The notes beneath the pieces were generated by a model, which made no database searches, had not been told where the DNA came from, and worked only from the letters and a program-made list of their open reading frames with translations. A program made the position numbers and the translations under genes. Shown here in pieces: positions 57,020 through 61,951 of a stretch of 64,000 bases of DNA (the first letter of the stretch is position 1; every line of letters starts with the position of its first letter). The stretch comes from Micromonospora sp. NBC_00389 (GTDB taxonomy: Bacteria; Actinomycetota; Actinomycetes; Mycobacteriales; Micromonosporaceae): positions 4,030,001 through 4,094,000 of the forward strand of contig NZ_CP107947.1 of NCBI RefSeq assembly GCF_036059255.1, in the 5' to 3' direction.

Positions 57020-58910
57020 ATGAGGCCTCGCCGCGCACCTCGGCCCGGGCCACCCGCGCCGTCAGCTCGTGCAACGGGGGAAGAAACTCGTGCAGCGGCG
57101 GGTCGATCAGGCGGATCGTCACCAGCAGCCCGTCCATCGCGGTCAGGATCTCCACGAAGTCGGCCCGCTGCAACGGCAGCAACGCGTCCAAGGCGTCGGT
57201 CACCTCGCCCGGCCCGTCCGCCAGGATCAGCCGTTCCACCAGCTCCCGACGCTCGCCGAGGAACATGTGCTCGGTGCGGCACAGGCCGATGCCGGTGGCG
57301 CCGAACCGCCGGGCCCGCCGGGCGTCCGCGCCGGTGTCCGCGTTGGCCCGTACGCCCAGCCGGCGCACCGCGTCGGCGTGCCCGAGCAGCCGGTGCACCG
57401 CCGCGACCAGCGGGTCGGCCTGCGGCGCCAGGTCACCGGCGAGGTAGCGGGCGACCGGGGAGGGCTGCACCTGCACCTCGCCCGGGTAGACCCGACCGGT
57501 GGTCCCGTCGATCGAGATCACCTCGCCGGCCCGCACGACCCGGTCGCCGACGATGAACTCGCCGCGCTCGGAGTCGATCCGCAGCGCGTCCGCGCCGCAG
57601 ACGCAGGTACGCCCCATGCCCCGGGCCACCACGGCGGCGTGTGAGGTCTTGCCGCCGCGCGAGGTGAGCACTCCCGCCGCGGCGATCATGCCGGGCAGGT
57701 CATCCGGGTTGGTCTCCCGCCGCACCAGGATCACCGGCCCGTCGGCCGTTGCCGCCGTGGCTGAGTCGAAGACCACCCGGCCCACGGCGGCGCCGGGCGA
57801 GGCACCGAGGCCGACGGCCAGGCGGGCGCGCCGGCCAGGTCGAACGCGCGGAACATCAGCTGGGCCAGTTGGGCGCCGCTCACCCGGTGCAGGGCCTCGT
57901 CCAGCGTGATCAGCCCCTCGTCGACCAGCTGCGCGGCGATCACGAACGCCGCCGCGGCGGTCCGCTTGCCCACCCGGGTCTGCAACATCCAGAGCCGACC
58001 CCGCTCGATGGTGAACTCGATGTCGCACAGGTCCCGGTAGTGCCGCTCCAGCGTCGCCATGATCTCGACGAGCCGGCGGTAGCTCACCGGGTCGGTGTGC
58101 GCCAGCTCGGGCAGGCCGACGGTGTTGCGGATGCCGGCCACCACGTCCTCACCCTGGGCGTTGGTGAGGTAGTCGCCGTAGATGCCGCGAGTGCCGGTGG
58201 CCGGATCGCGGGTGAACGCCACCCCGGTGCCGGAGTCCGGGCCGAGGTTGCCGAAGACCATCGCCATGACGTTGACCGCCGTGCCGAGGTCGTCCGGGAT
58301 GTGCTCCTGGCGGCGGTACAACCGCGCCCGCTCGGAGTTCCACGACTCGAACACCGACCGGATGGCCAGGTAGAGCTGCTCGTGCGGGGCCTGCGGGAAC
58401 TCGTGCCCGACCTGCGCGGCGAAGATCTTCTTGTACGTCTGCACCAGGTCGCGTAGCTGTTCGGCGTTCGGCCCGGCCGGCCCGGCCGTCGCACGCAGCG
58501 CCTCGAGCTCCCGCTCGAACTCCTCCGCCGGTAGCCCGTGCACCGTACGGCCGAACATCTGGATCAACCGCCGGTACGAGTCCCAGGCGAAGCGGGTGTC
58601 GCCGCTGTGCGTGGCCAGACCGCCGACGGTGGTGTCGTTGAGCCCGATGTCCAGGACCGTCTCCATCATCCCGGGCATCGAGTACCGGCCACCGGAGCGG
58701 ACCGCCAGCAGCAGCGGGTTGTGCGGGTCGCCGAGCCGCCGGTCCAGCCGCGCCTCCACGTCGCGCAGGTGTGCGTTGACCTCCGTGAAGAGCCCGTCCG
58801 GGGGCGCCCCGGTCTTCAGGTACTCCCGGCAGGCGTCGGTGCTGATGGTGAAGCCCGGCGGCACCGGCAGCCCCAGCTGGGTCATCTCGCTCAGGTTCGC
58901 ACCCTTGCCC
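57020..58910 (-). pseudogene. ppdK: Pyruvate phosphate dikinase, main fragment (disrupted, frameshifted, C-terminally truncated)
   Basis: PPDK interconverts pyruvate and phosphoenolpyruvate. On the minus strand the gene resumes at KGANLSEMTQLGLPVPPGF. It shows the ATP-binding region AVRSGGRYSMPGMMETVL and FERELEALRA, and the phosphohistidine loop GVLTSRGGKTSHAAVVA. Three lesions are visible: the 5' end is separated by an IS607-type element; the frame shifts near 57830 (FRAFDLAG in one frame, RLAVGLGASPGAAVG in the next); and homology ends near HELTARVARAEVRGE at about 57020. About 250-300 C-terminal residues with the PEP-site cysteine are therefore missing. Non-functional. Confidence 0.88.
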
Positions 58911-58925
58911 GTTACCTTTCACTAA

Positions 58926-59859
58926 GTGCGTGTTTGAGAAGGCCCAATATGGACGGTGTGGCGGCGTGACGATGGCCGCCGGGGCGGGCAGGGTGTCCGG
59001 GTGTCGTCGCCTCGTCGTGGATACCCGTCGGACCTGACCGATGCCCAGTGGGCGTTGATCGAAGGGTTGTTGCCGGAGCCCAGCACGGACGGGCGGCGGG
59101 AGAAGCATCCTCGTCGGGAGATCGTCAACGCGATCTTGTACGTGGTCCGCTCGGGGTGTCCGTGGCGGTACCTGCCGGCGGATCTGCCGCCGTGGCAGAC
59201 GGTGTACTGGTACTTCGTGCGCTGGGAAGACGCCGGTGTGACCGAGAACCTGCTGGCCACGCTGCGGGTCAAGGCGCGGGTGCAGGACGGGCGGAATCCG
59301 GAGCCCTCGGCGGGGATCATCGACTCGCAGTCAGTGAAGGGCGCCGACACCGTCGGGCGGCAGACGCGTGGCTACGACGCGGGTAAGAAGGTCAACGGCA
59401 GGAAACGGTTCATCATCACCGATACCGCCGGGCTGTTGGTCACCGTGGCGGTGATGGCGGCGTCGTGGCAGGACCGCGACGGCGCGAAGATCGCCCTGCT
59501 CAGCGCTTATCTGGCCACCCCGATCCGGCACGTCTTCGCCGACCAGGGCTTCGCGGGCCGTCTCGTCGACTGGACCCGTGACACCTTGAAGATCACGCTG
59601 GAGATCGTGCGGAAGCCCGCTGACCAGCGGGGCTTCGCCGTGCACCCGCGCAGGTGGGTCGTGGAGCGGACCCTGGCATGGCTCACCGCCTGCCGCCGGC
59701 TGGCCCGCGATTACGAACGCCACCCTGAAATCTCCGAAGGCATCGTCAGGTGGGCCGCCATCGCCGGCATGACCCGCCGCATCACTCGCGGCCGGCCAGC
59801 CCGACGGCAGGCAAAGCGCACCTTCATCTGGACCTGATCAAGTCCTCTCAAACACGCTC
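58926..59859 (+). mobile_element. IS5-family (IS427/IS1031-like) insertion sequence
   Basis: 934 bp bounded by inverted ends of the form G(T/A)GCGTGTTTGAGA(A/G)G (left from 58926, right ending 59859), flanked by TAA direct repeats (58923-58925 and 59860-59862), the 3-bp TNA duplication typical of this group. One transposase ORF fills it. It inserted exactly at the stop codon of tnpB. Confidence 0.88.
59001..59837 (+). CDS. IS5-family DDE transposase
   Basis: A 278-residue transposase: N-terminal GYPSDLTDAQWALIEGLLPE, SGCPWRYLPADLPPW, then the DDE core with Asp in GIIDSQSVKG, Asp in HVFADQGFAG and Glu in RRWVVERTLAWL (the Y-2-R-3-E-6-K-like region is RWVVERTLAW...RRLARDYE). The frame is intact and the ends are recognisable, so it may be active. 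GTG 59001 gives the family N terminus; an upstream in-frame start would add 15 residues. Confidence 0.92.
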   Translation: MSSPRRGYPSDLTDAQWALIEGLLPEPSTDGRREKHPRREIVNAILYVVRSGCPWRYLPADLPPWQTVYWYFVRWEDAGVTENLLATLRVKARVQDGRNPEPSAGIIDSQSVKGADTVGRQTRGYDAGKKVNGRKRFIITDTAGLLVTVAVMAASWQDRDGAKIALLSAYLATPIRHVFADQGFAGRLVDWTRDTLKITLEIVRKPADQRGFAVHPRRWVVERTLAWLTACRRLARDYERHPEISEGIVRWAAIAGMTRRITRGRPARRQAKRTFIWT

Positions 59860-61277: not shown

Positions 61278-61849
61278 GGCTCATCCTGGGCTGTTGCCGT
61301 GGCAACCGCGCGGCGGGCCCGGTTCGCCGCTGCGCGGCGGCCGTACAACCGGGCGCAAAGGCTGGTCAGGATTTCCGTGACGTCGCGGACCAGGTCGTCA
61401 TCAACCTCGGCCGGGTCGGCGACCAGGAGCCGGCGTCCCTGCGCAGCCAGCGCAGCCTCGACGTATTCGGCGCCGAACCGGGCGAACCGGTCCCGATGCT
61501 CCACCACGATGGTCGCCACGGCCGGGTCACGCAACAGGGCGAGGAACTTCTTGAGGTGCCCGTTCAGGGCGGACCCGACCTCGGTCACCACCCGGGAAAT
61601 AGTCATGCCTTGGCCCGTGGCCCACGCAGTGACCCGTGCCACCTGACGATCCAGGTCGGCCTTCTGATCAGCCGACGACACCCGGGCGTACACCACCACT
61701 ACCCCTGCCGGGGCCGGGGCAGGGGGCGATTCCACCAGGATCAACCCGCCGACCCGCCGAGCAGGCACGGGTAGCTTGCCCTCCCGGAACCAGCGATACG
61801 CCGTCACCGGGTGGACCCCTTCCCGCTTCGCCCACTCTTTCAAGTTCAC
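61274..61849 (-). CDS. tnpA: IS607-family serine recombinase transposase
   Basis: A 191-residue transposase with an N-terminal MerR-like HTH (NLKEWAKREGVHPVTAYRWF) and a serine-resolvase domain with catalytic Ser58 in VVVYARVSSADQKADL. VVEHRDRFARFGAEYVEAAL and the C-terminal basic helix complete it. The GTG start at 61849 has a TAGTAT -10 (61861-61856 on the minus strand) at leaderless spacing. The ORF is intact. Confidence 0.93.
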   Translation of the reverse strand: MNLKEWAKREGVHPVTAYRWFREGKLPVPARRVGGLILVESPPAPAPAGVVVVYARVSSADQKADLDRQVARVTAWATGQGMTISRVVTEVGSALNGHLKKFLALLRDPAVATIVVEHRDRFARFGAEYVEAALAAQGRRLLVADPAEVDDDLVRDVTEILTSLCARLYGRRAAANRARRAVATATAQDEP

Positions 61850-61890
61850 AGTCGCATACTATCGCGCACTCCCAAGTCCACTGTTGGCGA

Positions 61891-61951
61891 CCCCCAGCAG
61901 GTCGGCTCTGCCCCGGTCACCCTCGATGAAGTCGTAGACGTACTTGGGCAT
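61891..61951 (-). pseudogene. ppdK: 5' end of ppdK, cut off by the IS607-type element
   Basis: From ATG 61951 the minus strand reads MPKYVYDFIEGDRGRADLLG, the classic PPDK N terminus (YVYDF...DLLGGKGAN), and then runs into the element. GGAG precedes the ATG, so the native translation start is still present. The rest of the gene begins 3 kb away at 58910. Confidence 0.88.

Follow-up and report, generated by a model that had tools for sequence, protein, structure and literature searches.

The ppdK2 locus

A gene for pyruvate,phosphate dikinase lies in pieces on the minus strand of the window, that is, the whole stretch of 64,000 nucleotides of the Micromonospora sp. NBC_00389 chromosome analyzed here. 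Because an intact ppdK (ppdK1) is found elsewhere in the same genome (7751272–7753953 of the chromosome, a single 7.87-Mb contig), the window gene represents a second copy; it is a pseudogene and is named ppdK2 here. The features of the locus, in window coordinates and in the 5' to 3' direction of ppdK2, are as follows.

61893–61951, minus strand: 5' piece of ppdK2 (19 codons and two-thirds of the next), aligned to 22 of 22 relatives
61891–61892, minus strand: GG core dinucleotide at the left-end junction of the IS607-family element (coordinate comparison)
58911–61890, minus strand: IS607-family element, with ends set against L224, a 97% identical copy of another genome that lacks IS5, and against six others
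61274–61849, minus strand: tnpA, an IS607-family serine recombinase of 191 aa (NF033518, 204.6 bits against a cut-off of 110)
59859–61277, minus strand: tnpB, an open frame of 472 aa for an RNA-guided nuclease of the IS607 type (NF038280, 480.1 bits against a cut-off of 350)
59860–59862, no strand: right TAA copy of the IS5 target duplication (coordinate comparison)
58926–59859, plus strand: IS5-family element of 934 bp with terminal inverted repeats (seven other copies served for comparison of its ends and TNA duplications)
58956–59837, plus strand: IS5-family transposase, 293 aa (NF033580, 225.3 bits against a cut-off of 110)
58923–58925, no strand: left TAA copy of the IS5 target duplication (coordinate comparison)
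58909–58910, minus strand: GG core dinucleotide at the right-end junction of the IS607-family element (coordinate comparison)
57026–58908, minus strand: main piece of ppdK2, containing a 4-bp deletion near 57825 (TIGR01828 positions 28–381 and 383–636)
56915–57025, no strand: part of a small, unrelated Micromonospora gene adjoining truncated ppdK2, with CCTCG microhomology at the junction (by eye)
53051–57025, no strand: DNA with a GH15 glycosidase, an SfLAP membrane protein and others (family profiles), in place of the ppdK2 3' end and the pfl of many relatives and without a match of at least 120 bases in the relative loci

On the minus strand, the start codon of ppdK2 occupies 61951–61949, and 59 nt of coding sequence extend to 61893; coding resumes at 58908, after an interruption of 2984 bases (58909–61892, counting the GG core of both junctions). 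The first-pass annotation had described a ppdK split by an IS607-type tnpA-tnpB element with an IS5-family element inside it, and the pieces, the element ends and the family models all agree with that description. The main piece is 90.5–92.8% identical to the gene of the three nearest relatives and 74% identical, at the DNA level, to ppdK1 of its own genome. In an alignment of ten sequences, four bases near 57825 are absent from the window (the exact site is ambiguous by a few bases), which accounts for the frameshift formerly placed near 57830. Homology to ppdK ends at 57026, leaving about 649 of the 886 codons, with the last 237 or so gone; the missing C terminus noted earlier is thus real, and is better described as part of a larger replacement. 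There are no in-frame stops in either piece, and the main one holds a 384-codon open frame matching the ATP-binding domain. Both pieces match the dikinase family model TIGR01828 (865 positions), the two frames scoring 483 and 320 bits, short of the cut-off of 843 for a full-length match; the profile is matched up to position 636, and positions 637–865 have no counterpart. ppdK2 differs from the enzymes of this family in being a second paralogue and a pseudogene, and its enzyme function has probably been lost.

Two nested insertion sequences

The IS607-family element is 2980 bp long including IS5, and 2043 bp once IS5 and one of the two TAA copies are subtracted. It carries an IS607-type TnpA with an IS607-type TnpB downstream, and it is inserted at a GG in codons 20/21 of ppdK2; GG is present at both junctions and a target duplication is absent. 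An excerpt of the literature on the IS607 family (PMC6188088) describes the same GG target and the same lack of a target duplication, so that the window element resembles other IS607 insertion sequences in gene order, family models, target and mode of insertion; it differs from them in that its right end is split by IS5. This right end reads GGTAACGG in all seven of the other copies inspected. At E ≤ 1e-100, 31 of 151 Micromonospora genomes, the present one included, have an IS607 match. Copy L224 is that of genome G066; the nearest other IS607 of the own genome is 84% identical.

The IS5-family element lies within the IS607 right end, separated from its terminus by 12 bases and the duplication. 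It has an IS5-type DDE transposase (NF033580, PF13340 and PF01609); all three transposition genes of the locus (tnpA, tnpB and the IS5 transposase) exceed their NCBIfam cut-offs. Its inverted repeats agree at 13 of the 14 outermost bases, and it is flanked by a 3-bp TNA duplication, as are the seven other copies inspected (TCA, TGA, TTA or TAA in 7/7). In transposase family, inverted-repeat ends and 3-bp TNA duplication it is like other IS5-family insertion sequences of the DUF4096/DDE type, and no notable difference from them was found; its subgroup may be IS427 or IS1031. Copies that are 97% identical are present in G053, which has three, and in G003, which has one; the nearest other match in the own genome is 76% identical over 382 of 943 bases; matches at E ≤ 1e-50 occur in 45 of the 151 genomes, again including this one.

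The order of insertion proposed at first, IS607 and then IS5, is well supported by these comparisons, since the target bases of IS5 are IS607 right-end sequence, uninterrupted in L224, and since a 97% identical IS607 without IS5 is present in another genome. The stop codon of tnpB (59859–61) consists of the last IS5 base and two bases of the duplication, and the end of the tnpB frame therefore matches that of uninterrupted L224.

Intact genes and empty sites in other Micromonospora

The 384-aa piece of ppdK2 was used to search 150 other Micromonospora genomes, all of which matched. In 43 of the 150 the protein identity was at least 80%, and among the matches listed most others were near 70%; this set of 43 ppdK2 genomes was counted by hand, with G124 (75%) excluded. 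Thirty-four of the 43 were inspected (20 with wide context and 29 in a second set, 15 being common to both), together with two records that carry species names, M. orduensis and M. globispora; these species may already be represented among the 34 genomes. The insertion site is empty at all 36 relative loci, that is, in 22 of 22 with wide context and in 29 of 29 of the second set (15 genomes in both). The first-pass annotation had predicted an uninterrupted ppdK of about 880 codons at this place in related genomes, and such a gene was indeed found: the ppdK2 frame has 885–886 codons in 21 of the 22 wide-context loci, the exception being G127 (L165), in which it stops at 436 codons. In the second set, 28 of 29 frames are open for at least 884 codons, most of them up to the limit of the available sequence; the exception is again G127. 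The two ppdK2 pieces of the window are contiguous and in the same order in all 22 wide-context relatives.

Several draft genomes have a contig end about 7 kb from ppdK2, which raised the suspicion of an rRNA operon nearby; none was seen in a scan of the window, and the idea was abandoned.

The 3' break and the pyruvate formate-lyase genes

The DNA beyond the end of ppdK2 (57025–53051) was compared with the relative loci and gave no match of at least 120 bases at E ≤ 1e-10; the two named contigs are uninformative here because they end soon after ppdK2. The small-gene fragment that forms the join (56915–57023) has matches in 32 of the 151 genomes (own included), with at least five in three of them and several diverged copies in some. 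Because CCTCG is common to both sides, illegitimate recombination is suggested as the origin of the join. Farther on, a segment of about 0.8 kb (53167–53975) recurs at 80–88% identity in many Micromonospora genomes, with two or more copies in some.

In G046 (L159), ppdK2 is followed in the 3' direction by pyruvate formate-lyase (PFL), a radical-SAM protein (presumed activase) and a cNMP-binding gene, the last of which is retained in the window at 52023–53003. By full-length DNA match, this marker was recognized in 15 of the 22 loci, invariably 3' of ppdK2. PFL is also 3' of ppdK2 in G093 (L153), where frames of a zinc dehydrogenase-like and a beta-lactamase-family protein occur in the same stretch, so the spacing between ppdK2 and pfl varies. 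In many Micromonospora (L153–L172), ppdK2, pyruvate formate-lyase, the radical-SAM activase, the cNMP-binding gene and universal stress proteins form a cluster, of which the window (50491–57025) retains the outer parts only.

PFL is present in 40 of the 151 genomes and was not found in a search of the whole genome that contains the window. It occurs in 28 of the 43 ppdK2 genomes, against 12 of the 107 others (Fisher P 9e-11, a value in which independence is overstated, as the species are related). In 23 of the 28 genomes with both, PFL is 3' of ppdK2 on the same contig, 2.0–5.4 kb from the ppdK match, and in the other five the two are on separate contigs of draft assemblies. The 15 ppdK2 genomes without PFL, however, contradict a strict link between ppdK2 and pfl; in two of them (G117 and G141) the cNMP gene follows about 1 kb after ppdK2. 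From these 15 it also follows that the loss of pfl could predate the loss of the ppdK2 3' end. Judging from synteny, the truncation of ppdK2 most likely marks the border of a loss in which pfl and pflA disappeared as well. The locus of G127 (L165, 9606–11943), in which ppdK2, stopped at codon 436, stands beside a frame with only the glycine-radical domain of PFL, followed by the activase, shows an independent decay of the same region. In four of the 12 genomes with PFL and no ppdK2 (G029, G075, G107 and G118), a more distant PPDK (69–70%) lies 1.7–2.0 kb 5' of PFL on the same strand, which may represent a similar module with another dikinase.

Selection on ppdK2

Polarized against two outgroups and the three nearest relatives, the changes on the window branch number 21 nonsynonymous and 12 synonymous; the corresponding totals for those three relatives together are 38 and 64 (Fisher P 0.009). 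With ingroup agreement alone, the counts were 26/34 for the window and 48/114 for the relatives. The first of these comparisons suggests that ppdK2 came under relaxed selection on the window branch. The N/S ratio of 1.75 is below the 2.68 expected with all single-base changes equally likely, and loss of constraint therefore fits part of the branch only. The relaxation is presumably due to the presence of intact ppdK1 and the loss of the pfl partner.

Succession of events and alternative explanations

Four lesions are present at the locus; the insertion site is empty in the relatives, and the element ends and the nesting order can be read against other copies. Almost certainly, then, this is a decayed ppdK2 that received an IS607-family element, then IS5 within that element, and that suffered a separate 4-bp deletion and a larger 3' loss, probably including pfl. 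IS607 would have entered at codons 20/21 by serine recombination at a GG core, without target duplication, and the IS5-family element would then have entered the IS607 tail with a 3-bp TNA duplication. The frameshift would be due to a separate 4-bp deletion. The last 237 or so codons would have gone in a larger deletion or replacement, most likely together with the pyruvate formate-lyase genes, which flank ppdK2 in many relatives; a single event would thus probably account for the loss of pfl and of the ppdK2 3' end. Several observations count against this explanation. Neither ppdK2 piece has an in-frame stop, N/S on the window branch is below the value for equally likely changes, and the 15 ppdK2 genomes without PFL are compatible with an earlier loss of pfl. 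Moreover, before the insertion, codon 20 must have been GGG, which is rare in the relatives (one of the 22 wide-context loci and none of the 29 of the second set), the others having GGT or GGC.

It is quite improbable that IS5 was on the site first, or that IS607 and IS5 arrived as a pre-nested unit. Position alone is compatible with the two having jumped as one; against this, the IS5 duplication consists of IS607 right-end sequence, which is uninterrupted in L224, and none of the seven other IS607 copies has IS5 at its right end. Neither IS607 alone in ppdK2 nor an IS607 elsewhere with IS5 at the same base was seen among the 36 relative loci and the seven other IS607 copies. That the ppdK pieces came from different loci, joined by rearrangement or misassembly, is contradicted by the empty sites and by the 22 wide-context relatives, in every one of which the pieces adjoin in this order. 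The ends of both elements are exact and the own genome is one contig; this origin is exceedingly unlikely, with an assembly error excluded only indirectly.

The two remaining explanations concern function. A truncated remnant that still yields a useful domain protein is very improbable: the 384-codon open frame with its match to the ATP-binding domain would favor it, but the frame is shifted, most of the PEP-binding C-terminal region is absent, the native start is cut off and N/S is raised. A reversible switch, in which precise excision of IS607 restores ppdK2, is scarcely credible. The lack of an IS607 target duplication and the continuation of the frame across the GG core are what such a switch would need. 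However, the 4-bp deletion and the loss of about a quarter of the gene length mean that excision could not restore the gene, which contradicts the switch as to enzyme function, and the IS607 right end is moreover split by IS5. Misassembly, unrelated loci, the reversible switch and the functional remnant were accordingly all rejected. In short, the locus is an ordinary case of a pseudogene in genome decay whose history is unusually readable, a clean example of layered transposon decay in which both elements can be compared with undamaged copies and the insertion with empty sites. A literature search on Micromonospora PPDK and PFL, IS607 pseudogenes, IS607-TnpB and nested insertions with reRNA gave no title on this locus or on a ppdK2-pfl module (judged by titles).

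The IS607 right end and the TnpB guide RNA

In the seven other IS607 copies, the tnpB stop lies 1–11 nt from the right end, and a guide-RNA scaffold would therefore have to overlap tnpB. In this respect the window-type IS607 would be like IS200/IS605 TnpB, for which an excerpt of PMC8612924 describes a scaffold overlapping tnpB. It would differ from the RAGATH-18 group of IS607, in which the guide RNA is outside the gene as far as an extract of PMC11061315 describes it. The last 200 nt of the seven copies have a mean column identity of 92%, and their predicted fold has 65 consensus pairs, mostly invariant, of which five have a two-sided change and a few are broken in three or fewer sequences; the covariation term is small (-1.22 of -89.03). 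An RNA structure at the right end is thus suggested. An Rfam scan of 30–64 kb gave nothing at gathering thresholds. By eye, the IS5 target lies in the last of the predicted hairpins, in its 3' arm, and IS5 would separate the open tnpB frame from the last bases of the element and from its probable guide RNA. The guide-RNA function of TnpB may have been lost, and the mobility of IS607 presumably was. It was also considered whether a TnpB guide derived from ppdK2 might attack the paralogue ppdK1; by eye, the two genes differ at several bases.

Micromonospora is usually treated as aerobic. Tentatively, and with somewhat less than even confidence, we propose that some Micromonospora have a linked ppdK2-pfl-pflA module for low-oxygen pyruvate metabolism with a dedicated dikinase, that this module has been lost repeatedly and stepwise, with the window representing a loss in progress, and that IS5 disarmed the IS607 TnpB by splitting its last guide-RNA hairpin. 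The apparent module, whose loss is traceable across species, would be more useful than the core finding itself. As for the second IS607 copy of the same genome (L024, 2017285–2019241), its tnpB is apparently frameshifted by a 2-base gap near the start, and its flanks form an inverted repeat (by eye).
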